A stretch of 64,000 bases of DNA from Nitrospirales bacterium LBB_01. GTDB taxonomy: Bacteria > Nitrospirota > Thermodesulfovibrionia > Thermodesulfovibrionales > Magnetobacteriaceae. Below are positions 4,093 to 32,513 of this stretch, in pieces (positions within the stretch are counted from its first letter, which is position 1; the number at the start of each line of letters is the position of its first letter). A program made the translations under genes and the position numbers. The notes beneath the pieces were generated by a model that was not told the DNA's origin, ran no database searches, and saw nothing but the letters and a program-made list of their open reading frames with translations. Location of the stretch: contig CP049016.1 in the NCBI GenBank assembly GCA_004376055.2, positions 2,542,001-2,606,000 on the forward strand, in the 5' to 3' direction.

Positions 4093-4165
4093 AAAAAGAA
4101 CAATCCGCAGATGACACAGATAAACGCAGATAAAAAAAATGCAAATCTGCGAAAATCTGTGGATA
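4093..4165. repeat. Dispersed CAGAT/AATCTG repeat, copy 1
   Basis: This stretch contains CCGCAGATGACACAGAT, then CGCAGAT, then AATCTGCG and AATCTGTGG, an imperfect inverted arrangement. Related copies lie at 49857-49916 and 55034-55096. The annotated ATG of the following membrane protein (4111) lies inside it. Confidence 0.6.
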
Positions 4166-6312
4166 AAATCCTTGTTCCGTGTTCTCTGTTCATCATTATT
4201 TCCGTTGTGCTGTATCGTTGTTACAACGGAATAAACATGTCATATCCGTTTTACTTTATATGGGATATGGATCACCAGGTGCTGCTTGACCTTTTGCAAA
4301 TCAACAGCGGCTCGCTTCCCAGCAATCTCACCCACCCAGGCTTTGGCATTAAGCTCTTGCTGTACCTTACGCATAAAACAGCTTATGCACTAAAGTATAT
4401 ATCCATCTCCGGTTTCAATGATCTCTATAAATCAGTAAGTCCGCTTGCCTGTGTTGCCGAACTCACTGATTTTTACCGAAGACACTCCCCTGTGCTTGCC
4501 ATTTTGACTGTGTTATTTTTATGGTCTTCTCTTAACATTATTTTTAAACCAAAATGGTGGGTTAGTTTATTTGTACTTATTTTTCTTGGCTTTCAGGAAT
4601 CCCTGTTTTACCATAGCGCTATGATACGCTCTGAGCTTTACTGCGTCTTTTACTGGAGTTGTGCCGTATTTTTCTCCGCTTATGCCGCAAACGCAAGTAA
4701 CAGATCACTTAGAAACATATCTTTAGTGCTTGCCGGAATGTTTGCAGGGCTTTCATTGCTAACAAAGGTTCAGGCAGTTATGTACATTTTTTTTATAATG
4801 CCCTTTTTTGCGTTTAACATGCTTCAGGACAAAAACACTGAGGAGACCAATAGGCAGTCAACCCTCTATTTTTATCTGTGTGCTATAAATACCGCAGTGT
4901 TTTTTCTTCTTATGTTTATGGGCTTTATATTTAAAATGCCAGATGCTGTTGAAACCCTTAACCGGCAAGCATACGGCTTTACAAAAGTTTCCGTTATATT
5001 TTTTGTGGTATGGGGAATTTACTTACTTTATAATGTGTTAGCATTTTATACTCCAAAACTTAATATTCCTATGCGGAAACCCTTGCTTTTGATGAATCTC
5101 ATTGTGACCGGTTTTTTATTTTCTTTTTTGCTGCATTTTTTGATTTATTCAGACACAAGTATGTCGTTTAGTTATATGTTAAGCGATATTAAGGCGCTAT
5201 TCTTTAATCCAATGTTTACACATCTTCATACTTTCATGGAAAACATCAAAAAGCTGACAGAGCTAATCGTATATAACCCATTTCTTTTTGTTGTTAATGC
5301 TGCCGTTTTTGCCATAATGATTTTGGGGTACTTAATGAAATTTATTGAAATACAAAAACGTCAGATGGTTATGCTCGCTTTGCTTTTAGCGCTGACATAT
5401 ATGAACACGTTCTTTGCAACGCGTTTTGCGTTACGGGATTACCTGTGGGTAGAGATAATGGTTAATTTTGCAAGTCTCTATTTTGCCATGATAATTTTGT
5501 CAAATATAAGAAAGCATATGAAACCGGTATTATTTTTTATAGCCGTTATATTTTTGATTTTGTTTACAAAAAATATCAGCCAGTGTATGAAAGTTCCTGC
5601 AAGAGTAAACATTAATTATGGGCATTACGGTTGGAAAGTGATGTTTAGCCACATATATGGCCGTGGTGAAAAAAATTATTCAACTTTTATGAATTCCCGT
5701 TACATGGATAGGATAGAAAATGGTATGGTAAATGATGATATTCAATACGCCCGGAATTATGAGCAGAATAAGCGTACGTTATCTTTCATTTTTCCGTGTA
5801 CCGAGGGAAACACAAGATATATGGGGTATGTTGGAGGGGGTTCACCTGTGTGGGTAGATAGTAGTGACTATAAAATTATGGGGTTTCCCCCAGAGTTGAA
5901 AAATTCACTGACGGTAGACCCGTCTTATGTCCTGCTGCAAGCAGCCTGCAGGCTTAAACCAGAGTTTGTCTCGTTAGAGGAGTGGTCTAATTGGGAATAT
6001 ACTGAATACCAGGATAAGTTCAATAAGAAACCGAAGGCTGGGATTTTACCTGTCTATACAAGACTTGATTTATCTGTACTGCTGTTTGTCCACACAGAAG
6101 ACGAGGCGGCGGTTATCGGAGCAAATGCTGAGCCGACTAACCTTATGATAGAACTGTCAAACGGGGTTAATGTGCTCAAACTCCATGGGGTAAAAATCAA
6201 AAAATACGCAGAAATTGATATGAGTAAGCTAAAGTACAAATACTTCTTTGTTGCAAAAACGAATTACTACGTTAACTATTCAGTATCCCGGTCTACAGCG
6301 CCGGCCCCTTAA
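4111..6312 (+). CDS. Polytopic membrane protein, putative GT-C glycosyltransferase (paralog 1 of 3)
   Basis: I do not recognise a named family. The protein (733 aa from 4111) has one helix, then the block SYPFYFIWDMDHQ with a DxD (Asp52/Asp54) in the first loop, then LPSNLTHPGFGIKLLL, about ten further hydrophobic helices, and a soluble C-terminal third ending in KLKYKYFFV. An acidic DxD-type motif in the first extracytoplasmic loop after TM1 is the hallmark of GT-C transferases, so a lipid-sugar-dependent transferase is inferred. It is closely related to the next gene and to 30336-32513. The start is uncertain: ATG 4111 lies in a dispersed repeat, whereas GTG 4159 would give an N-terminus exactly as long as that of paralog 3. 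Confidence 0.75.
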   Translation: MTQINADKKNANLRKSVDKILVPCSLFIIISVVLYRCYNGINMSYPFYFIWDMDHQVLLDLLQINSGSLPSNLTHPGFGIKLLLYLTHKTAYALKYISISGFNDLYKSVSPLACVAELTDFYRRHSPVLAILTVLFLWSSLNIIFKPKWWVSLFVLIFLGFQESLFYHSAMIRSELYCVFYWSCAVFFSAYAANASNRSLRNISLVLAGMFAGLSLLTKVQAVMYIFFIMPFFAFNMLQDKNTEETNRQSTLYFYLCAINTAVFFLLMFMGFIFKMPDAVETLNRQAYGFTKVSVIFFVVWGIYLLYNVLAFYTPKLNIPMRKPLLLMNLIVTGFLFSFLLHFLIYSDTSMSFSYMLSDIKALFFNPMFTHLHTFMENIKKLTELIVYNPFLFVVNAAVFAIMILGYLMKFIEIQKRQMVMLALLLALTYMNTFFATRFALRDYLWVEIMVNFASLYFAMIILSNIRKHMKPVLFFIAVIFLILFTKNISQCMKVPARVNINYGHYGWKVMFSHIYGRGEKNYSTFMNSRYMDRIENGMVNDDIQYARNYEQNKRTLSFIFPCTEGNTRYMGYVGGGSPVWVDSSDYKIMGFPPELKNSLTVDPSYVLLQAACRLKPEFVSLEEWSNWEYTEYQDKFNKKPKAGILPVYTRLDLSVLLFVHTEDEAAVIGANAEPTNLMIELSNGVNVLKLHGVKIKKYAEIDMSKLKYKYFFVAKTNYYVNYSVSRSTAPAP

Positions 6313-6322
6313 GGAGTGTTAA

Positions 6323-8494
6323 ATGCCGAATAATTCAAACAATGCGCTTAGAATTGTACCTTTTGTTATTGTTTCCATTATACTTTTCTTTTGTTACTAC
6401 AGTATAAACAGATCGTATCCGTTTTATTTTATATGGGATATGGATCATCAGGTGCTGCTTGATCTCCTGCAAATCAATAGCGCCTCGCTTCCCAGCAATC
6501 TCACACATCCCGGCTTTGGCATTAAATTGCTCCTTTTCTTTACGCATAAAACAGCCTATGCACTAAAATATGTTTCCGTATCAGGTTTCAAAGATCTTTA
6601 TAAGTCTGTAAGTCCACTTGTATGTGTAGCCGAGCTAACCGATTTTTATCGAAGACACTCCCCTGTGCTTGCCTTTTTGACGGTTTTACTTTTATGGTCT
6701 TCTCTTAACATTCTTTTTAAACCAAAATGGTGGGTTAGTTTATTTGTTCTTATGTTTCTTGGATTTCAGGAATCCCTGTTGTACCATAGCACAATGATTC
6801 GCTCTGAGCTTTACTGCGTCTTTTACTGGAGTTGTGCCGTGTTTTTCACTTCTACTACTTTAAAGCACAAAAACAGGTTACTTAAAAACACTTCTTTGAT
6901 ACTTGCCGGAATTTCTGTCGGACTATCATTGCTTACAAAGGTTCAAGCCGTCATGTATATATTTTTTATAGCTCCATTTTTTGTGTCTAACTTGCTTTGC
7001 TCTGCCCAAAGCAACGACACTGATATGGCAAGTGAAAATGCTAAACCATCCGCACTGTATTTGTACTTATGCTCCGTTAATACTGCAGTGTTTTCACTCT
7101 TTCTTTATAACGGATTTATGTTTAAAATGCCTGAAACTGTAGAAACTCTTAACCTACAGTCCTATGGCTTTACAAAAGTCTCTGCTGTCTTTGCAGTATT
7201 ATGGGGAATTTACATACTGTATAATGTACTGTCTTTTTATATTCCAAAACTAAATACGTTGACTGAAAAATCCTTGCTTTTGATGAATCTCATAGTAACC
7301 GGATTTATACTGTCTTTTCTGCTTCATTTTTTAATTTATTCTGACACAAGTCTATCTATCAACTACATGCTAAGCGACATTAAGGCATTGTTTTTTAACC
7401 CTCAGCACATAACGGTTAACACTGCCGGTGATAATATCAAAAAGCTCACGGAGCAAATCATATATAACCCGTTTCTTTTTGCCGTTAATATTGCCGTTAC
7501 TCTACTGCTGACACTTGGGTACTTTATGAAGTTTATTGAAATTCAGAGACGACAGATGGTTGTACTGTTTTTAATTTTAGCGCTGACTTATATAAACACT
7601 TTTTTTGCAACGCGCTTTATGCTAAGAGATTACTTGTGGGTTGAGATAATGGTTAATTTTGTAAGCATCTATTTTGCACTTGTTATCTTGTCAAACATTA
7701 ACAAATATGTCAAACCAGTTTCTTTGTTTTTAATCATCATATTTTTTGCATTGTTTACCAAAAATATAAGCCAGTGTATGAAAGTTCCCGTCAGAGTAAA
7801 CGCCAACTACAATCAGTACGGTTGGAAAGTAATGCTTGGCTTCGTCTATGACCGTATTGGTGAGAAAAACTATGCTGCAACTATGGATTTACATTACTTA
7901 ATCAAGATTAAAAATACCCTTATGGCCGATGATATTCAAAATGCCCTCAATTATGAGGAAAACAAGAGAATTGCGTCATTCATTTTTCCCTGTGCGAAGG
8001 TAAACACAAGATATCTTGGGCTGGTCTCACAGGCAGAAGTTGTATGGCAGGATAAACTTGACTATTTAATTATAGGGTATCCAGAGCTGTTAAAGAATTC
8101 GCTTATTATAGACCCGTCATACGTTCTAACTCAGACAACCTGCCGGTTTAAGCCTGAGACTGTTTTGGCGGGAGAATTTGGTGGAGGGATTTATGAGCGT
8201 CAGGATAAGATTAATGACAAACCAAAGGCTGGAATTTTACCCGTTCTTACTAGAAGGGATATAAACATATTATTGTTTGTTCACAAAGAAGACGAGGCTG
8301 CAGTTGCACAAAAGAATATCGTGCCTATTAACATTATGATAGTACTGACAGACGGAAAAAATCAGTTGGAACTGCACGGGCTTGAAATTAAAAAATACTC
8401 AGAAATAGACGTAAGCAAGCTAAAATATAAATACTTCTTTGTTGTAATGAAGCGCTACCCCTATAATTATTCAACAATAAAAGGTATCCCCTAA
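6323..8494 (+). CDS. Polytopic membrane protein, putative GT-C glycosyltransferase (paralog 2 of 3)
   Basis: This 723-aa tandem copy of the preceding gene starts 10 bases after it, with AAGGAGTG ahead of the ATG. Long stretches are nearly identical in DNA and protein (the WDMDHQVLLDLL, LPSNLTHPGFGIKLL and KPKWWVSLFVL blocks), so the duplication is probably fairly recent. The DxD in loop 1 is Asp39/Asp41. The C-terminal soluble domain is more divergent than the membrane part, as expected if the two copies have different acceptors. Function as a GT-C-type transferase is inferred from topology and motif only. The stop overlaps the end of the convergent kinase gene by three to four bases. Confidence 0.75.
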   Translation: MPNNSNNALRIVPFVIVSIILFFCYYSINRSYPFYFIWDMDHQVLLDLLQINSASLPSNLTHPGFGIKLLLFFTHKTAYALKYVSVSGFKDLYKSVSPLVCVAELTDFYRRHSPVLAFLTVLLLWSSLNILFKPKWWVSLFVLMFLGFQESLLYHSTMIRSELYCVFYWSCAVFFTSTTLKHKNRLLKNTSLILAGISVGLSLLTKVQAVMYIFFIAPFFVSNLLCSAQSNDTDMASENAKPSALYLYLCSVNTAVFSLFLYNGFMFKMPETVETLNLQSYGFTKVSAVFAVLWGIYILYNVLSFYIPKLNTLTEKSLLLMNLIVTGFILSFLLHFLIYSDTSLSINYMLSDIKALFFNPQHITVNTAGDNIKKLTEQIIYNPFLFAVNIAVTLLLTLGYFMKFIEIQRRQMVVLFLILALTYINTFFATRFMLRDYLWVEIMVNFVSIYFALVILSNINKYVKPVSLFLIIIFFALFTKNISQCMKVPVRVNANYNQYGWKVMLGFVYDRIGEKNYAATMDLHYLIKIKNTLMADDIQNALNYEENKRIASFIFPCAKVNTRYLGLVSQAEVVWQDKLDYLIIGYPELLKNSLIIDPSYVLTQTTCRFKPETVLAGEFGGGIYERQDKINDKPKAGILPVLTRRDINILLFVHKEDEAAVAQKNIVPINIMIVLTDGKNQLELHGLEIKKYSEIDVSKLKYKYFFVVMKRYPYNYSTIKGIP

Positions 8495-23239: not shown

Positions 23240-23332
23240 CTTAAAAACCTGATTTTGAGTTAACTTTGCAGGGACTACACATGTCCTGAAAAAACACTTG
23301 ACTTTTAATTATCAATCGTATTAAGCTCCATT

Positions 23333-23617
23333 ATGAAACTAACGGGAGTTGTTCTACTTACAGCTTTTACCTTGTCACTGGTAGCGATGCCGGGTATGGC
23401 TGCTCTTGTGCACTCTGCGGAGAAACCTGTAATTTTAACTCTTGATGTGTGTAACACAGCAGCCAGCGGAGTTCCGTTTACCGATATGCCGGTTATCTTC
23501 GTGCAAAATTCTGAAATTCTTTTATTTGATATATCCCTACCAAAAAGTTTTCAAAGTTTTACCTCCCATAAACCAGTTCTTTTAACCGTAATAAGTCATC
23601 CTCCTCAGTCCGTATAA
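23333..23617 (+). CDS. Small exported protein upstream of TonB receptor, unknown function
   Basis: I do not recognise a family. The 94-residue product begins with a signal-like hydrophobic stretch (KLTGVVLLTAFTLSLVAM, possible cleavage after GMAALVHSA). The remaining ~64 residues contain one cysteine (LDVCNTAASG) and a hydrophobic segment, FVQNSEILLFDISLP. A TTGACT box at 23298 suggests a promoter close to the start, but the -10 is weak. It lies 83 bases ahead of the TonB-dependent receptor in the same direction, separated by an imperfect inverted repeat. It may belong to that transport locus. Codon use and the signal sequence make it look real rather than chance. Confidence 0.55.
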   Translation: MKLTGVVLLTAFTLSLVAMPGMAALVHSAEKPVILTLDVCNTAASGVPFTDMPVIFVQNSEILLFDISLPKSFQSFTSHKPVLLTVISHPPQSV

Positions 23618-23673
23618 AAATCCACAAATCTTTTTAAACCAATAACTTTGTATCGTTGGTTTCGTGGTTTTTA
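23615..23673. repeat. Nested imperfect inverted repeat between exported peptide and TonB receptor
   Basis: The outer arms TAAAAATCCAC (23615-23625) and GTGGTTTTTA (23664-23673) and the inner arms AAACCAA (23636-23642) and TTGGTTT (23656-23662) can pair. It could be a weak terminator, an attenuator or an operator for the receptor gene. It is AT-rich, so significance is uncertain. Confidence 0.35.
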
Positions 23674-23700
23674 TGAAAAAAATATCGGAGGATAGTTTTA

Positions 23701-25785
23701 ATGAAAAGAGTTTTTCTATTTATTACATTATTTTTTATTTTTCCATGTTATGGTTACACCTCAGACAACACAACCCGTCTTGATGAGATAGTCATATCGG
23801 CAACACGTGAGGCAGAGCTGCAAAAAGACGTTCCTCAGACTATAAATGTAGTAAAAGAGGGTGAAATAAAAAGTGTTAAACCGTCTCATCCACAGGAAAT
23901 AATGGACAGAATTCCCGGCGTATGGGTTGGTGTAACTGCTGGTGAGGGGCACATGACTGCCATAAGACAGCCGCTAACGACAAATCCGGTGTATTTATAC
24001 TTGGAGGATGGAATTCCGATTAGATCAACCGGCTTTTTTAACCATAATGCCCTCTATGAGATGAACATCCCACAGGCTGAGCGTATAGAGGTCATGAAGG
24101 GCCCGGCAACAGCGCTTTATGGCAGTGACGCCATTGGCGGTACCATTAACGTAATAACTAAAAGACCGTCCCTCACTCCCGACGTTGAGCTAAACACAGA
24201 GGCAGGCAGCTTTGGATGGTACCGATTTCTTGGCAGCGCTTCAAACACCTTTGGCACAGACGGCCTGCGGTTTGACCTAAATATCTCCCATAAGGACGGT
24301 TTTAGAGATAGAACAGGGTACGACCGTCAAAGCGCTTCTCTAAGATATGATAAAACCATTGGGGCCTCTGTGTCATTAAAGACCGTTATCTCGTTTCACG
24401 ATATAGACCAAAAAACAGGCGGCACAAGCACCCTGACTAAAACCGATTACGAAAACAGACCCTCTTATAATTACCAGACATTTGACTTCAGAAAGGTTAA
24501 AGCCTTCAGGTACTCAACTGACATTGGGATAGAGCTAAACAAAGACTCTGTTTTAAGTTTCATACCCTATGTTAGATATAACAGGATGGACTTGCTGCCC
24601 GGTTGGGGTATTTTTAAATCCGGCACTAAGTATTACGGTTATGACTCAACGACAGAGTTTTACTCACTCGGTCTTATGTCAAAATACAGAGTGGATTTGC
24701 CGACGTTAAAAACCAGACTGATAACCGGAGTGGACATTGACTACTCTCCGGGGTCTTACTATGAAAGGCGTATTCAGGCATTTAAAACCGGAGATCAATA
24801 CACATCATACACATACGTTACCGATACGACCAATAATTATGACTTTAATGCGATATTTACAGGAGTTTCTCCTTACATTCAGACAGAAACCACTCCGGTA
24901 GAAAAACTTAAAATAACCGCAGGAGCAAGATATGATATCCTCTCTTATGACTACACAACAAACCTTGCTGCCAACGCTAACCGCCCTGATGACACAGACA
25001 GGAGTTTTTCACACCTTAGCCCTAAAATTGGACTGACATACGATTTCCTTAAAGAACTCAATGCGTTTGTCTCCTACAAAAACACCTTTAGAGCGCCATC
25101 GGCTACTGATTTATTTAAAGGCTCATCGGGAACCGCCTCCACTGCCGTTTCACTTAAACCAATTAAGGCTGACAGTTTTGAAGCCGGTCTAAGAGGAAAT
25201 GCTGGAGACATTTTTACCTACGACGCAACCCTCTACTACATGGAAAAACGGGATGACATAGTTAATTACTCGCCGATTACAAACGTAACTTTAAGGCAAA
25301 ATGCCGGCAAAACCACCCATGAGGGCGTTGAGATTGGATTTGGCGTCAAACCACTTAGAGAGCTTGAGCTAAGCACCTCGTATTCCTACGCTGAGCACAA
25401 ATACGATGAGTACGTAGTGTCAAAAACCCTGAACTATAATGGAAATGAGATTCCACTTGCGCCAAGAACGATTGTAAACACAAGACTGATGTATCGCCCC
25501 TGCTTTTTAAACGGCGGAGGGTTTGAACTTGAATGGGTAAAACTTGGCGATTATTGGATGGATAATGAAAACACCGCAAAGTATTCCGGACATGATCTTT
25601 TTAATTTCAGAGCAAACTATAAAATCAACAAAAACTGGACACTGTATGCACGAGTGCTGAACATATTTGATAAACTCTACGCTGAACAGGCGTCAAAAAG
25701 TGGAACCGATCAGCCCTACTATGCCCCCGGTGAGCCAAGAACATTCTTTGCAGGGCTTACGTACAATTTTGGAGGCGGAAAATGA
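23701..25785 (+). CDS. TonB-dependent outer membrane receptor
   Basis: This 694-residue protein has a signal peptide (KRVFLFITLFFIFPCYGYTS), a TonB-box-like LDEIVISATR at about residue 24, a plug domain with the characteristic ERIEVMKGPATALYGSDAIGG, and a long beta-barrel ending GLTYNFGGG. Such receptors import scarce ligands (siderophores, cobalamin, metal chelates) using energy from TonB, which is encoded in the same cluster at 27271. The ligand cannot be read directly. The neighbouring polyferredoxin and DUF2318-like genes point to a metal. The ATG follows GGAGGATAG. The next gene overlaps its end by four bases. Confidence 0.93.
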   Translation: MKRVFLFITLFFIFPCYGYTSDNTTRLDEIVISATREAELQKDVPQTINVVKEGEIKSVKPSHPQEIMDRIPGVWVGVTAGEGHMTAIRQPLTTNPVYLYLEDGIPIRSTGFFNHNALYEMNIPQAERIEVMKGPATALYGSDAIGGTINVITKRPSLTPDVELNTEAGSFGWYRFLGSASNTFGTDGLRFDLNISHKDGFRDRTGYDRQSASLRYDKTIGASVSLKTVISFHDIDQKTGGTSTLTKTDYENRPSYNYQTFDFRKVKAFRYSTDIGIELNKDSVLSFIPYVRYNRMDLLPGWGIFKSGTKYYGYDSTTEFYSLGLMSKYRVDLPTLKTRLITGVDIDYSPGSYYERRIQAFKTGDQYTSYTYVTDTTNNYDFNAIFTGVSPYIQTETTPVEKLKITAGARYDILSYDYTTNLAANANRPDDTDRSFSHLSPKIGLTYDFLKELNAFVSYKNTFRAPSATDLFKGSSGTASTAVSLKPIKADSFEAGLRGNAGDIFTYDATLYYMEKRDDIVNYSPITNVTLRQNAGKTTHEGVEIGFGVKPLRELELSTSYSYAEHKYDEYVVSKTLNYNGNEIPLAPRTIVNTRLMYRPCFLNGGGFELEWVKLGDYWMDNENTAKYSGHDLFNFRANYKINKNWTLYARVLNIFDKLYAEQASKSGTDQPYYAPGEPRTFFAGLTYNFGGGK

Positions 25786-26246
25786 AACTCAGGGCAGCTT
25801 TATACGCTTTAGTGTTACTTGTGTCGGGAGTGTCGGCAGGTGTGGCTGTAGCTAAATGGAGCCCCACTGATTATTATCACCGAATGTTGGTTTTAACTAA
25901 CGATGCTAAAGCTGCCCCTGTTTATGTGAAGGAGCTTTCAGGCAAAACAATTTTGAATCTAAGCATAAAAAACATGCAGGAGGCGGAAAACATCGTTGTT
26001 GATGTAACAGGGGGCAGTTTCTACTGTCCCTTGCCGCCTTCTGTAACGATTTTGCCTAAGCGATGGGTTTATTTCTCTGACAGGTATTTTTGGAAACTTA
26101 AGCACGGCATGAAAATTCCGGCTTATGTCGTTTTAAACGGTCATGAGGACTCCTTTGAGATTACATTTACAAGGCTTTCTGACGGAACCGTAATAAAGAG
26201 ATTCCCTATAGTTAAAGGAGAGGGTCATGAAAAACATGGGCATTAG
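25782..26246 (+). CDS. Exported protein with His-rich tail in TonB/polyferredoxin locus
   Basis: I do not recognise a family. The 154-residue product has an N-terminal hydrophobic signal or anchor (AALYALVLLVSGVSAGVAVA), then a predicted beta-rich domain with GGSFYCPLPPSVTILPKRW, and ends in GHEKHGH, a short histidine cluster that could bind metal. It overlaps the receptor gene by four bases (ATGA) and the polyferredoxin gene by 20 bases, so translation is tightly coupled. A periplasmic role handing a metal ligand between the receptor and the inner membrane is an inference from location. Confidence 0.65.
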   Translation: MKLRAALYALVLLVSGVSAGVAVAKWSPTDYYHRMLVLTNDAKAAPVYVKELSGKTILNLSIKNMQEAENIVVDVTGGSFYCPLPPSVTILPKRWVYFSDRYFWKLKHGMKIPAYVVLNGHEDSFEITFTRLSDGTVIKRFPIVKGEGHEKHGH

Positions 26247-27072
26247 CTGCTTAACCCTGAATAAGCGATACTTTATAATATTTATCAGCGCAGTGCTGTT
26301 TTTACCTCCTGTAAGCTTAATCCCACAGCTTGCCATGGAGCCAAACATGTGCGGGCAGGTGTGCCCTAAACTTTTCCTCATAATTCCAAAAGGCGGTGAT
26401 ATTTTAGGGAAAATGTGGGCAAATGTTAAAGCAATGTGGTTTGGAGCATCTTTGGTTGCATCAATTTTAACGGTAACGTTTTTCTTTGGACGGTTGTGGT
26501 GTGGTCATATTTGTCCTGTTGGCGGTCTTCCTGAGCTAACAGGACGATTTATACCCAGATGGCTAAAAATCAATTTCTCATGGATGAACGCTCCGGCTTT
26601 CAGATATGGGTATTTTGCTATTTTCATACTGGCCTCAGTGCTTGGTGTTGGCTCAATTGCCTGTAAACTTTGTAATTTCCGGGTGATTCCATTTTTAACC
26701 GGAGCGCCGTTTGAGGGAGCTTATGTAGCGTATCTTAGCAGCTCTATGGGAATAGCGGGCATCGCTACAGTGTTGGTTACCGGGGTTTTAGCTAAGGGAG
26801 GCAGAGCGTATTGCAATTTACTGTGTCCTGTGGGAGCAGTGGATGGTTTCATTAATCTTATTGGGACAAGGTTTGGATTTAACAAAAAAATCATAACAGA
26901 CAAAAGTCAGTGTAACGGCTGCGGGAACTGTGTGAAAGCCTGTATCGTGTGGGCAAGAAAACTTGACGAACAGGGTAAGGCAGAGACCAACAGGTTATCC
27001 TGTATGACATGCCTTAAGTGCACTTATGTATGTTCTGAGGGAGCAATCCGGTATGGGAGAGACAATGTTTAA
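26227..27072 (+). CDS. Membrane polyferredoxin (NapH/FtrD-like 4Fe-4S protein)
   Basis: This 281-residue protein has about five membrane helices. Two CxxxCP-type sites face the cytoplasm (CGHICPVGG and CNLLCPVGA), and a C-terminal ferredoxin domain binds two 4Fe-4S clusters (CNGCGNCVKAC and CMTCLKCTYVC). NapH, NosR and FtrD share this layout and pass electrons from quinol or cytoplasmic donors towards periplasmic partners; FtrD does so in ferrous iron uptake. The lead context here is a TonB receptor, TonB and a DUF2318-like protein, so a reductive metal-import role is inferred. A GGAG site at 26218 precedes the ATG. Confidence 0.87.
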   Translation: MKNMGISCLTLNKRYFIIFISAVLFLPPVSLIPQLAMEPNMCGQVCPKLFLIIPKGGDILGKMWANVKAMWFGASLVASILTVTFFFGRLWCGHICPVGGLPELTGRFIPRWLKINFSWMNAPAFRYGYFAIFILASVLGVGSIACKLCNFRVIPFLTGAPFEGAYVAYLSSSMGIAGIATVLVTGVLAKGGRAYCNLLCPVGAVDGFINLIGTRFGFNKKIITDKSQCNGCGNCVKACIVWARKLDEQGKAETNRLSCMTCLKCTYVCSEGAIRYGRDNV

Positions 27073-27268
27073 TAAAACTGTGTGTTCAGTAATAGGCGGA
27101 GTATCGGCATTGGCCGGCTCTGGGGTGCTCTCACTGTGCAGCCAGCGCAGCTGCAGCTCATGTTTTGGATGCGTTGGAGTTTTAGCTTCTTTGGGTGTCG
27201 CGTTATTAGCAAAAAAAATTATAGATAAAGGGCAGGTTAAATCAGAAACTGGTAATTTGGAGGTATAG
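27065..27268 (+). CDS. Small Cys-rich membrane peptide
   Basis: This 67-residue product has two hydrophobic segments flanking a cysteine cluster (CSQRSCSSCFGC) and a short charged tail. I do not recognise a named family. The cysteines could bind a metal or an Fe-S cluster at the membrane. The ATG at 27065 has GGGAG five bases upstream; an in-frame ATG at 27053 is possible. It overlaps the polyferredoxin gene by eight bases, which supports a real, coupled gene, and is followed after two bases by the tonB-like gene. Confidence 0.6.
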   Translation: MFNKTVCSVIGGVSALAGSGVLSLCSQRSCSSCFGCVGVLASLGVALLAKKIIDKGQVKSETGNLEV

Positions 27269-27270
27269 CT

Positions 27271-27948
27271 TTGAACAGTAAATATCTAAAGATAGGAATA
27301 ACTGCCTCAGTGCTTTTTCATTTTGTAGCATTTCTGATTTTTGCTAAAGTTACGACTGTAAAGCTAAAAAACAGCCCTAAACTTGTCATTAACTTTGATA
27401 TTATCTCAAAACCAATAACCAAACCCATGATGGAAAGCGCTCAGAACTTACAACAGAACACTGCCAAATCGACGACGCAAAAAGCCGTTAAGAAAACTGT
27501 TCAAACGACAGAGAAATCTAAAAAAGAAGTTCATGCAGAAAAAATCTCTCCGCTGGATGTTACATCCTATACAGATGCACAGCAAAGTACCGCGCCGGTA
27601 GCATCCGGGCATACGGAAAGCTCCGCAACAGAGGTGCTGCCCGCTCAGAAAGTATCCCATGAGGAGACATACGTAAAAGAAAACTTCACATACATCAGAG
27701 ACATGGTAATGAAACGGGTATCGTATCCGTTTTCAGCAAAAAAGATGGGAATATCCGGCAAGGTTACAGTTTCATTTGTAGTAGCAGAAAGTGGATGCGT
27801 GGAGGAGTTGAAGGTAGAGGAAAGCTCCGGTCACGGCGTTTTAGATGACAGCGCCATAAGTGCCGTAAAGCAGGCAGCGCCTTTTCCTAAACCCGTGTTA
27901 TCTGTTAAAATTGTCTTACCTATAACCTATAGGCTTGAAAACGGATGA
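27271..27948 (+). CDS. tonB: TonB family energy-transducing protein
   Basis: This 225-residue protein has an N-terminal membrane anchor (GITASVLFHFVAFLIFAKV), a low-complexity periplasmic spacer rich in Lys, Thr and Gln rather than Pro, and a C-terminal TonB domain with YPFSAKKMGISGKVTVSFVV and SSGHGVLDDSAI. It couples the inner-membrane proton gradient to the receptor at 23701. The start codon is TTG at 27271, behind GGAGGTATAGC; no better ATG is near. No exbB/exbD genes are present in this cluster, so the motor must be encoded elsewhere (motA at 38101 is a flagellar type). Confidence 0.88.
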   Translation: MNSKYLKIGITASVLFHFVAFLIFAKVTTVKLKNSPKLVINFDIISKPITKPMMESAQNLQQNTAKSTTQKAVKKTVQTTEKSKKEVHAEKISPLDVTSYTDAQQSTAPVASGHTESSATEVLPAQKVSHEETYVKENFTYIRDMVMKRVSYPFSAKKMGISGKVTVSFVVAESGCVEELKVEESSGHGVLDDSAISAVKQAAPFPKPVLSVKIVLPITYRLENG

Positions 27949-28408
27949 TTTTATTAAATGTAGCAGGGGTGAACTTATCAAACTAAATATCTTCATTGCG
28001 CTTATTTTTTCTTTTTTGACGTTATTTGGTTGTAAAGAAAAACAGAAATTTTTACTGGCTACTCTGACTAATGGCGTTTTAGAAATAAATGAGGGGTATA
28101 TCAAAGAGAAAACTCCCCTTTTTTACGCTTATAACGACAATGGAAAAACTATAAAGTTTTTTATAGTCAGAGTAAATGGCAAGGTGCGCTCCTACTTTGA
28201 CGTTTGCAACTCCTGCAAGATTAAAAATCTTGGATACCGAACTTATGAAGCAGGAATTGAGTGCCGTGCCTGCTCAATCACAATACCCTACGAAGAACTT
28301 GAAACAGGAATTGGCAGCTGCTACCCATTCCACCTTAAAGGAGAGGAAAAGGACGGCAAATATACTATCTCAAAAGAAGAAATACTCCGACTAAAAGAAT
28401 ATCTGTAA
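27935..28408 (+). CDS. DUF2318-like metal/Fe-S-binding lipoprotein
   Basis: This protein of about 157 residues has an N-terminal signal ending in the lipobox TLFGC, so it should be a lipoprotein. The mature domain matches the DUF2318 pattern: FFIVRVNGKVRSYFDVCNSC, then GIECRACSITIP and GIGSCYP, giving five to six cysteines for a metal site. Such domains occur next to polyferredoxins and iron-uptake genes. The likely start is TTG at 27935, overlapping tonB by 14 bases with a weak ribosome site; no good ATG exists in frame before the signal. It closes the TonB/polyferredoxin operon. Confidence 0.75.
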   Translation: MKTDDFIKCSRGELIKLNIFIALIFSFLTLFGCKEKQKFLLATLTNGVLEINEGYIKEKTPLFYAYNDNGKTIKFFIVRVNGKVRSYFDVCNSCKIKNLGYRTYEAGIECRACSITIPYEELETGIGSCYPFHLKGEEKDGKYTISKEEILRLKEYL

Positions 28409-28526
28409 GATTGACAAGTTTAGTATAAAACTTATAAACTCCAGCAACAGTTTGTACAGAGGCCTCAGTTGTTTCATATTACGATATATGGTGGCAGCTG
28501 AGAATGAAAAAATATGGGGGGTATTT

Positions 28527-29213
28527 ATGAAAAAGTTTTTGTTTTGTCTACTGGTAGTCACATTATTGTCGTTATCGTTTGGAATACTTGCCGCAACTGC
28601 AGAAGAAGCTATAGCATACAAACCTCCAAAGCTTGGAAAGCCAACTGTACGTGTTGGGGCAGGGACGCGGAGTATTGATGCCGATGTTTTATTGGCTCTT
28701 GTACCGGAACATGCGGGTTTAACCACAAAAGCACAGCCAGCCGTTTGCTGGTATATGTCCAAACCTGGAAAGGCAAAATTAGAAATTGCAGCACTTGCAT
28801 CTGAGGCAGCAGGCCCTCTGTTAGACAAAGAGATTGCAAAACCAGACAAGGGTGGAATTTACTGCGCTAAGTTGAAACACTACGGGGTCAGCCTTGAAAA
28901 GGGGGCACAATATAAGTGGATGATATCGGCAGTTGATGAGAAGGGGCAGATTTTAAAAAGCATGGCTGGTGGTGGCAATATAGTTGTAACTGAACCATCA
29001 GATGAGTTTCTAAAGAAAGTATCCACTGCAAAGGATACACAAGTACCCTCTATAAATGCCAGCGAGGGATATTGGTATGATGCACTGGAAAGTATTTCAG
29101 ATTTAATAACAAAACACCCTAAAGACATGAATTTACGGGGTATCAGAGCATCTCTCTTACACCAGGTTGGACTGGAACAAGCAGCTGATTTTGATAAAAA
29201 AGCTTCAGAATGA
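28527..29213 (+). CDS. DUF928-like exported protein
   Basis: This 228-residue protein has a signal peptide (FLFCLLVVTLLSLSFGILAAT). A beta-rich domain follows that resembles DUF928: it has RVGAGTR, LALVPEHAGLTTKAQPAVCWYM, then YGVSLEKGAQYKWMIS, and ends with a helical segment containing YWYDALESISDLITKHP. DUF928 proteins are known mainly from cyanobacteria and some Gram-negatives, often near CHASE2 or TPR-CHAT genes; function is unknown. The ATG at 28527 is chosen because GGGGGG precedes it and the signal peptide begins there, although the frame is open from 28452. It appears to be a single-gene unit. Confidence 0.7.
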   Translation: MKKFLFCLLVVTLLSLSFGILAATAEEAIAYKPPKLGKPTVRVGAGTRSIDADVLLALVPEHAGLTTKAQPAVCWYMSKPGKAKLEIAALASEAAGPLLDKEIAKPDKGGIYCAKLKHYGVSLEKGAQYKWMISAVDEKGQILKSMAGGGNIVVTEPSDEFLKKVSTAKDTQVPSINASEGYWYDALESISDLITKHPKDMNLRGIRASLLHQVGLEQAADFDKKASE

Positions 29214-30335: not shown

Positions 30336-32513
30336 ATGAACAGTGCTTTTGTAAAAAACATACTATTTGCAACAGTAGTCGTCTTCTTAGCCTTTATTTA
30401 TGTAGGAGTTAGCCGGAGTTATCCTTTTTATTTCATCTGGGACATGGACCATTCGGTTACTGTGGATTTGCTTTTTTTGCAGAGCGGTCGTTTGCCAAGC
30501 AACTTGACGCATCCTGGGTATGGTTTGAAGTTTCTGCTGTTTTTTATACAAAAAATCGGTTATCTTACCGGCGCCATTTCTGTAAGTGATTTATCCAGTC
30601 TGAATTTTTCCCTGAATCCGATTATATGTATAGCAGAATTAACAGATTTCAATCGTCTGGTATCTCCGTTTTTAGCCCTTTCCATCGTGGTTTTTTTGTG
30701 GGCGTCACTTGAGGTTTATTTTAAGCCTGATTTTAAACTTAGTATTTTTATGCTGCTTTTTTTGGGTCTTGAGGAGTCGCTCATTTACCACAGCAGTATG
30801 ATAAGAAGCGAGCTTTACAGTGTTTTTTATATATGTGCTGAGGTGTTTTTTGTATTGCTTGCAGCTAAGACTCAAAAGCGAAGTGTAAAAACCATTAGCC
30901 TGATAATTGCTGGAATGCTCTCAGGGCTTGCATTTCTAACAAAAGTACAGGCATTTGTATTAACTGCTTTTCTCCTCCCATTGCTCACATGTCTTGTATT
31001 ATATGCCAGCGAATCTGGGGAAAATGATACCGCACATCAGAGGATGCCGCTTTGGTTGTTTATCGTTAGTGTTTTTAATACAGTTACTATGGGAATATTA
31101 CTTTTTAACGCCTATAATTTCATCATGCCTGATGAGCTTACACTTCTATTCACAGGTGTGTATGGGTTTACCAAATTTTCGCTCTCATTTACAGTAATGC
31201 TGGGGAGTTTATTTATTTTTACTACAGTTGTGTATTTTGTGAAAAAATTTTATGGAAATATCGGGAAAACTGTTGTGTTTGTAAATCTCATGATACTTGG
31301 ATTTATTTTGTCTGTGTTTTCACATTATCTACTTCTAAAAAGCACATCGTCGTGTTATGTGTATCTTTTAGCTGATCTTAAGGCAGTGTTTTTTAATCCT
31401 TTATATACAGGGACAGGAGGTTTTATGAGCTATTTTGATAAAACCTCGCACCAATTTATGTATAATCCAACTCTTTTTATTACTAATTTGCTGTTAATTG
31501 CTTTTTTGATTTCAGGGTACTTTCTAAAACTGATACGAGCGTTATGGATAGAAATTGTAATACTTACAGCAGTCTGCTTTTTTTGCTTTCTGAACATTTT
31601 TATTGGCACACGTTTTATTTTAAGAGATGTTCTATGGGCAGAGATTTTTACTAATTTTTTAAGCCTTTTTATTTTTCTTTTTATAATGTTGAGGCTTGTA
31701 AAATTTAGGAGGGTGTTTTCAACTGCGTTTATCGGTCTTTTTATTTTTTTGTTTTATATAAACGCTCTGCACTCAAAGGAAATGCCTATAAGAATTAATG
31801 CCAACTATAACACCTATGGATGGAAAATCCTTCTTACGCAAGTATATTGTAATAGTCCGTATGAGTACTATTTCAGTGAACCAATGGTAAACAGCTACAG
31901 GATGAACCTAACCGAGGATGCTCTTAGGGAGGCTGCTAAAAGCACAGAAAATTATAAGCGGAAAAAATATGCGGCTGCTTTTGTATTTCCAGGAGTTAAT
32001 CTAAACTTGCGGCATATCGGCTATGTAGCTAAAACCAGACCAGTATGGACAGATTTACTCTATGTGAGAATTGCCGATTTCCCCGACATACTAAAAGACG
32101 CAATGGTAATAGATGTTTTAAGTGCATTAGGGGATAAAAATGCCACGCTGCCCTTCTATTTTGACCCTCAGTCAGTCACCTCAACTGATAAGGAGTTATT
32201 TTACCAATCAGAGAATCAGGATAAGCTCAGAAAGGGGAAAAAGAGCGGAGTTTTGCCTGTTCTAACACGACAGGATTTAGATATCTATTTATTTGTAGAT
32301 AAAGCAGATTTCCAAAAACTTACTAAGACAGCTGACGCTAAACCTTTAACAATTAAACTTTTTGCTCAAAACGCTTACTATGAATACAGCGGCATTAAAA
32401 TTGACAAATATACCGAACTAGAGCTTAATAAATTTACCAAGAGATATTTTTTTGTTATTAAAAACAATTACCATAATTTTTACTGTATTCCCTCAAACAG
32501 GGCAGATTACTAA
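30336..32513 (+). CDS. Polytopic membrane protein, putative GT-C glycosyltransferase (paralog 3 of 3)
   Basis: This 725-residue relative of the pair at 4111-8494 shares SYPFYFIWDMDHS with Asp36/Asp38, LPSNLTHPGYGLKFLLFF, the block FLTKVQAF, and the C-terminal pattern GVLPVLTRQDLDIYLFV through KRYFFVI. It is clearly more divergent than the other two are from each other. It sits at the head of a second glycan block with methyltransferases and GT2/GT-C genes, which supports a role in glycan assembly. The N-terminus from this ATG is a natural length reference for the uncertain start of paralog 1. Enzymatic function remains inferred. Confidence 0.75.
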   Translation: MNSAFVKNILFATVVVFLAFIYVGVSRSYPFYFIWDMDHSVTVDLLFLQSGRLPSNLTHPGYGLKFLLFFIQKIGYLTGAISVSDLSSLNFSLNPIICIAELTDFNRLVSPFLALSIVVFLWASLEVYFKPDFKLSIFMLLFLGLEESLIYHSSMIRSELYSVFYICAEVFFVLLAAKTQKRSVKTISLIIAGMLSGLAFLTKVQAFVLTAFLLPLLTCLVLYASESGENDTAHQRMPLWLFIVSVFNTVTMGILLFNAYNFIMPDELTLLFTGVYGFTKFSLSFTVMLGSLFIFTTVVYFVKKFYGNIGKTVVFVNLMILGFILSVFSHYLLLKSTSSCYVYLLADLKAVFFNPLYTGTGGFMSYFDKTSHQFMYNPTLFITNLLLIAFLISGYFLKLIRALWIEIVILTAVCFFCFLNIFIGTRFILRDVLWAEIFTNFLSLFIFLFIMLRLVKFRRVFSTAFIGLFIFLFYINALHSKEMPIRINANYNTYGWKILLTQVYCNSPYEYYFSEPMVNSYRMNLTEDALREAAKSTENYKRKKYAAAFVFPGVNLNLRHIGYVAKTRPVWTDLLYVRIADFPDILKDAMVIDVLSALGDKNATLPFYFDPQSVTSTDKELFYQSENQDKLRKGKKSGVLPVLTRQDLDIYLFVDKADFQKLTKTADAKPLTIKLFAQNAYYEYSGIKIDKYTELELNKFTKRYFFVIKNNYHNFYCIPSNRADY

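Follow-up and report, generated by a model that had tools for sequence, protein, structure and literature searches.

We analysed a stretch of 64,000 nucleotides (nt) from Nitrospirales bacterium LBB_01 (contig CP049016.1, positions 2,542,001 to 2,606,000), hereafter called the window, and looked at a string of genes on its plus strand at 23333-28408. With rather more belief than doubt, we hold that this locus is an operon for the acquisition of copper, or of a copper chelate, placed under the control of a nascent-chain sensor; here we infer the stalling of the ribosome, the direction of the switch, the metal and the reduction step. The string consists of seven plus-strand open reading frames (ORFs) that encode a leader peptide of 94 amino acids (aa), a TonB-dependent receptor, a 154-aa protein, a polyferredoxin, a Cys-rich peptide, TonB, and a DUF2318 lipoprotein. 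From the receptor gene on, the ORFs overlap by 4, 20, 8, and 14 nt, except that tonB starts after a gap of 2 nt. An earlier note on this DNA had described an overlapping gene string beginning at 23333; all the genes that it named were recovered by ORF and family matches, and its start stands, but it had left undescribed the 94-aa ORF that begins there and that is part of the system. The genome is a single contig of 3.27 Mb (99.87% complete), and statements on the whole genome rest on family searches. A magnetochrome-domain match places it in the magnetosome lineage, and its family also includes Candidatus Magnetominusculus sp. LBB02.

The leader ORF (23333..23617, plus strand) has a signal-peptide-like N-terminus, judged by eye, with Lys and a hydrophobic stretch, followed by the motif LTLDVC, whose Cys40 codon lies at 23450-23452. 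It ends in SHPPQSV, with the Pro-Pro (PP) pair at residues 90-91, and a spacer of 83 nt separates it from the receptor gene. No Pfam or NCBIfam family matches it. A hidden Markov model (HMM) was built from 14 operon-heading leaders, and our comparison set comprised 395 Nitrospirota genomes; the model found matches in 95 of them, with up to five per genome. The distance from the invariant Cys of L-D/N-V-C to the PP was 49-52 residues in 56/56 leaders, and exactly 51 in 46 of these. Two residues, no more and no fewer, follow the PP in 44/56 leaders, an E or D stands at position -2 in 47/56 and an R directly precedes the PP in 37/56, the core being mostly [E/D][R/H/Q]PP. In the genus of the window, orthologues and paralogues share SHKPVLLTxISHPP, and the ratio of nonsynonymous to synonymous substitution rates is 0.25-0.38. 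By its sequence, the 94-aa ORF is a member of an unnamed leader-peptide family and part of the system. One genome of the comparison (G065, L032:3406-3927, the locus being reverse-complemented) has, where the usual leader would stand, an exported ORF of 173 aa that is rich in His and Cys. It too closes with PP (EKPPTFA), and a CNC motif lies 54-56 residues ahead of this pair.

A peptide of this kind could instead be secreted, either to bind metal as a small protein or to serve as the precursor of a metallophore that the receptor takes back up in the manner of MbnA and MbnT, as its signal-peptide-like N-terminus, its conserved Cys and its site directly upstream of the receptor would suggest. Yet the stretch from Cys to PP shows little conservation of sequence although its length is fixed: pairwise identity is 23% over the 45 residues after the Cys and 64% at the end of the PP core, conservation being highest at LDVC and at the final residues. 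Furthermore, the choice of Pro codons is biased, as described below, and the leader family also heads operons without a receptor gene. We therefore regard such a role in place of regulation as quite improbable. By analogy with known sensors, the leader is probably a nascent-chain sensor that regulates the uptake of copper by arresting the ribosome.

A promoter of the form TTGACA-N16-18-TATxxT was found 4-10 nt before the ATG in ~42/56 leaders. In the window, a sigma-70-like promoter, TTGACT-N18-TAAGCT, was read from the sequence at 23298..23327 (plus strand), with the start codon of the leader 5 nt past the -10 box; it was assigned after those of congeners, and an automatic scan picked another site in the window. 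Since a near-consensus promoter sits 4-10 nt from the start codon, the leader mRNA is probably leaderless, with transcripts that would begin at the start codon or within a few bases of it.

CCT-CCN encodes the Pro pair in 34/56 leaders against 53/186 background Pro-Pro pairs (p=2.6e-5), and CCG is depleted as first Pro codon (p=5e-7). The resulting CCUCC is complementary to the Shine-Dalgarno (SD) sequence GGAGG. In the window, the CCTCCT codons (23600..23605, plus strand), a putative arrest site, pair with the receptor SD sequence (23687..23691, plus strand) in the minimum free energy and centroid folds, and in the ensemble the pairing probability is 1.00, compared with 0.67 for a synonymous control. 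Probabilities of 0.96-1.00 were obtained for the six closest operons (window, G001, LBB02, GWB2, Ru_enrich_NS, and G352), and in these operons synonymous Pro codons lowered the pairing. Over 44 loci, the effect was modest (Wilcoxon p=0.015). The folds thus predict that the PP codons sequester the receptor SD sequence. SecM works on the same principle, a paused ribosome set against RNA pairing. Intrinsic terminators between the leader and the next gene were also considered as a general switch and set aside because they are too few (8/56, compared with 9/168 shuffles).

The best indication of the metal comes from the genes that related leaders precede. Leaders stand ahead of receptor genes in many loci. 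The second leader of the congener G001 (L086), 73% identical to the leader of the operon in the same genome, precedes a copper receptor of TIGR01778 (717.5 bits, cut-off 472), and another leader (L087) heads a further TIGR01778 receptor (706 bits, cut-off 472). Among the 87 proteins downstream of leaders, 12 are NosL, and CopC is present in one leader-headed operon. The genome of the window has a second leader (L120:12242-15405, corresponding to about 3137241-3140404 of G000:C1, minus strand), which precedes a multiheme (CxxCH) cytochrome and a NosL protein of 474 aa, before genes for a quinol-cytochrome complex. The YHS domain in distant homologues of the 154-aa protein also counts for copper. 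The same genome encodes heme-copper oxidases, and FeoB gives it a separate iron route. Copper is favoured because related leaders head copper receptors, NosL, and CopC genes, and we consider it likely that the metal of the operon is copper. The earlier note had proposed a ferric or cupric ligand; the evidence leans to the second, given what the leader family heads. Another leader-headed locus (L103:748-6367) contains a leader, two NosL-like genes, a TlpA-like thioredoxin gene, a third NosL-like gene, and genes for an FtsX-type permease and an ABC ATPase; by its gene content, it is a different copper-type operon.

In the 3.27-Mb genome, a search for PF00593 found no receptor but that of the operon (23701..25785, plus strand; 694 aa; PF07715 and PF00593). 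Its score against the PqqU equivalog was 146.8 (cut-off 1200), and its nearest solved relatives are PqqU/YncD (3e-38). This kinship would fit the import of a non-metal redox cofactor, such as pyrroloquinoline quinone (PQQ), to be reduced by the polyferredoxin. Against it stand the PqqU score, far under the cut-off, the lack of any PQQ gene among the cassette genes, and the metal-related partners elsewhere, and we give such a cofactor hardly any credence. The best family of the receptor is that of the siderophore receptors, TIGR01783 (3.3e-60), although at 204.4 bits it remains below the cut-off of 223.5.

This match bears on reductive iron uptake, in which a ferric chelate would be imported, reduced by the polyferredoxin and the DUF2318 protein and taken up as Fe(II) via FeoB, with a leader that senses iron or redox state. 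The presence of a PF10080 lipoprotein agrees with this scheme, as does the magnetochrome domain in the genome, which implies a high iron demand. Moreover, the iron system of Campylobacter includes FetA, which combines DUF2318 with YHS (PMC10783030), an architecture that speaks for iron and against copper. On the other side, the siderophore model stays under its cut-off, Fur-box-like sites upstream of 16 leaders were no better than in shuffles, no FTR1 or P19 gene was found in the cassette, and genes for copper receptors, NosL and CopC lie behind leaders of this family. Reductive iron uptake is in our view unlikely.

The string at 23333-28408 is conserved as a cassette. At E<1e-50, the polyferredoxin was found in 16/395 genomes, and the 154-aa family in the identical 16, adjoining the polyferredoxin in every one. 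Because the two co-occur in the same genomes and side by side, chance falls far short of explaining the layout. The Cys peptide was found in 18/395 genomes: 15 of the 16 cassette genomes, two with apparent remnants, and one borderline match. Both remnants adjoin TonB. The first (G040, L144) has the order Cys peptide-ExbB-ExbD-TonB-DUF2318, without receptor or polyferredoxin, and the second (G154, L145) has the Cys peptide and TonB only, at a site where a congener holds the whole operon; from this gene content, both look like operon stubs. The earlier note had named the occurrence of its small proteins apart from the receptor as an observation that would speak against its proposal. The 154-aa protein was never apart from it (16/16), and the Cys peptide only in these two genomes, besides the borderline match. 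It had also named a nearby cobalamin riboswitch; Rfam at gathering thresholds found three tRNAs only in the whole window, and no cobalamin or other riboswitch. Relatives show the complete gene order: leader, receptor, 154/210-aa protein, polyferredoxin, Cys peptide, ExbB, ExbD, TonB, and DUF2318 lipoprotein. The ExbB and ExbD genes that precede TonB in the relatives are missing from the copies of the window, G001, and LBB02; the sole ExbD of the window genome lies outside the cassette, at genome position 3064979. In one metagenome-assembled genome (L010:5152-5868), the polyferredoxin ORF passes into ExbD mid-gene, probably through an assembly join, and because of this jump it was left out of the polyferredoxin alignment.

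The 154-aa protein (25782..26246, plus strand) is, from the alignment and the predicted fold, a membrane-anchored beta-sandwich protein that ends in GEGHEKHGH. His33 and the C-terminal His154 are invariant, and distant homologues carry an inserted YHS domain. Its top Foldseek matches are cupredoxins, with low TM values of 0.3-0.46, and a VIA Z of ~7 was reached equally with unrelated beta-sandwiches, so that a clear cupredoxin assignment was dropped in favour of a generic beta-sandwich. The polyferredoxin (26227..27072, plus strand; 281 aa) is a NapH-like membrane protein with two Fer4_5 matches, CxxxCP motifs and two [4Fe-4S] ferredoxin motifs (NapH subfamily, E=8.7e-18). At 64.7 bits it falls below the cut-off of 213 of NapH/MauN TIGR02163, and FixG_C, the domain of the CcoG/FixG cupric reductase, was found at E 0.1 neither in it nor in the 154-aa protein. 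It has two extra conserved Cys pairs, Cys42/46 and Cys146/149, in loops that are predicted to face the periplasm; the orientation was derived from hydropathy and the positive-inside rule alone, and a structure prediction (mean pLDDT, the predicted local distance difference test, of 34.5) was not used. Relatives were absent from viral contigs, and plasmids gave only distant Bacteroidota 4Fe-4S proteins of 30-33% identity. The Cys peptide (27065..27268, plus strand; 67 aa) is a two-helix protein in which C-x4-C-x2-C-x2-C is invariant among 11 aligned sequences. Next come the TonB energy transducer (27271..27948, plus strand; 225 aa; PF03544, 4.2e-17) and the DUF2318/FtrD-like lipoprotein (27935..28408, plus strand; 157 aa), which scores 55.8 bits against PF10080 (5.3e-15; cut-off 26.3) and in which we read a lipobox-like LFGC and the Cys pairs CNSC and CRAC.

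These elements would fit together as follows. The first product of the near-leaderless mRNA would be the 94-aa leader, which is exported. Under copper scarcity, the ribosome would pause on the PP codons just ahead of the leader stop codon and mask CCUCC, which would free the GGAGG of the receptor, and the receptor and the following genes would be translated. Copper bound to the LDVC cysteine, ~50 residues from the PP and so just outside the exit tunnel, would relieve the pause; the ribosome would depart and the receptor SD sequence would be sequestered. The receptor, powered by the TonB of the operon and an ExbBD pair encoded elsewhere, would carry a Cu(II) complex into the periplasm, where the His-tailed 154-aa protein may take over and hold the metal. 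The polyferredoxin, aided by the Cys peptide and the DUF2318 lipoprotein, might then reduce Cu(II) to Cu(I) or keep acceptor thiols reduced. Since the cassette has no inner-membrane metal transporter, delivery to periplasmic copper enzymes would be the simplest end point. The coupling of TonB import to a periplasm-facing redox protein had been proposed in the earlier note and is kept here as an inference; the leader, the best clue to ligand and regulation, had been missed.

Several observations weigh against copper import under a nascent-chain sensor. The receptor of the window falls outside the copper-receptor equivalog TIGR01778 (39.5 bits, cut-off 472.45). The leader core is RPP or HPP, not RAPP, and in the genus of the window the mature leader keeps one Cys only. 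The leaders are related, and the codon counts are therefore not independent. The intergenic fold of the window is overall not unusually stable (z -1.2), and the PP-SD pairing is weak or not predicted in many distant leaders with longer spacers; there, other read-outs (Rho, or terminators) may therefore apply. Finally, the commonest class of leader-downstream proteins (21/87) is split-Soret/C_GCAxxG_C_C cytochrome-like rather than a recognised copper protein. Locus L091:1635-2447 and about 20 similar loci encode such a protein, with a Tat signal and matches of up to 1.5e-49 to NF047622.

A sister type of operon (L079:1001-8290, L081:1226-10501, and L093 on the reverse strand) contains a leader, a receptor, a ~325-aa protein, and a second-type polyferredoxin, together with a double-cubane reductase (NF040772, 3.4e-109) and a BcrA/BadF-type ATPase; ExbD and TonB are found further along in L081 and L093. 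From their family assignments, this reductase and ATPase could give ATP-driven low-potential electrons for periplasmic metal reduction. Tentatively, and with more doubt than belief, we extend the proposal to Nitrospirota as a whole: they would hold a large family of nascent-chain copper sensors on leaderless mRNAs, whose PP arrest codons double as anti-Shine-Dalgarno sequences, and which drive TonB-polyferredoxin import that passes cytoplasmic electrons to periplasmic Cu(II), the sister operon adding an ATP-driven double-cubane donor.

Directly 3' of the operon, a DUF928 protein is encoded at 28452-29213 of the window; it has its own good promoter-like site at 28411-28440 and lies outside the cassette in relatives. 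The window also encodes three large paralogous membrane proteins of ~723-733 aa (4111-6312, 6323-8494, and 30336-32513), two of them in tandem, and all three share the motif SYPFYFIWDMDH.

Much less is understood about the import of copper than about that of iron; studies so far cover a few TonB receptors specific for copper and, among nascent chains that sense it, CruR and CutF only. The leader family occurs in roughly one in four of the sampled Nitrospirota genomes and heads genes for copper receptors, NosL, CopC, and redox proteins that are as yet unexplained. If the proposal is true, the family extends nascent-chain copper control to another phylum, and the leaders flag a set of unassigned copper genes. 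Membrane polyferredoxins and DUF2318 would also gain a testable function, and the sole TonB receptor of a bacterium of the magnetosome lineage a possible role.

Parts of the cassette resemble several known systems. Like Campylobacter FetMP-FetABCDEF (PMC10783030), it has DUF2318, plus YHS in its distant relatives; unlike that system, it has a TonB receptor instead of an FTR1-type permease, P19, and an ABC transporter. The polyferredoxin shares with CcoG and the NapH/MauN polyferredoxins its membrane nature, the CxxxCP motifs and the two [4Fe-4S] ferredoxin motifs, but it stays below the NapH cut-off, lacks FixG_C, and adds two predicted-periplasmic Cys pairs. Some receptors behind the same leader family belong to the OprC/NosA-type copper receptors (TIGR01778), whereas that of the window does not.

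The arrangement most resembles CruR-CrtA-CrpH of Bordetella pertussis. There, CruR is a DUF2946 upstream ORF (uORF) that stalls at RAPP until copper on its CXXC relieves the stall, with 45 intervening residues between metal motif and Pro-Pro, kept within 1-2 (PMC9426467); CrtA (BfrG) is a TonB copper receptor (PMC12914433), and CrpH is a PepSY_TM protein thought to be a periplasmic copper reducer (PMC13038864). Both systems have a small exported uORF with a metal-binding Cys and a C-terminal Pro-Pro at fixed spacing, then a spacer, a TonB-receptor gene and a membrane metal-reductase candidate, with a link to copper. A wide distribution of uORFs of the RAPP type before TonB and copper genes has already been reported (PMC12992588). 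The window differs in that its reductase candidate is a polyferredoxin, that 154-aa, Cys-peptide, TonB, and DUF2318 genes are added, and that its switch is a predicted SD pairing, whereas CruR acts via Rho. The leader family has one invariant Cys (LDVC) and an RPP/HPP core in place of CXXC and RAPP. DUF2946 (PF11162) at E 0.1 matched none of 14 leaders and was absent from 100 Nitrospirota genomes, that of the window included, and membership of the leader in the DUF2946/CruR family was therefore rejected. CutF-like proteins are defined by fewer than 150 aa, PP within the last 15 residues, a signal peptide, and a same-strand gene within 1000 nt (PMC9973294). The leader of the window agrees with the length, PP and gene-distance rules and has a signal-peptide-like start by eye. 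CutF has a CxxxC and controls a multicopper oxidase, unlike the present family with its single invariant LDVC Cys, but in Rhodobacter cutFOG, as predicted here, the switch is the shielding of an SD sequence (PMC9973294).

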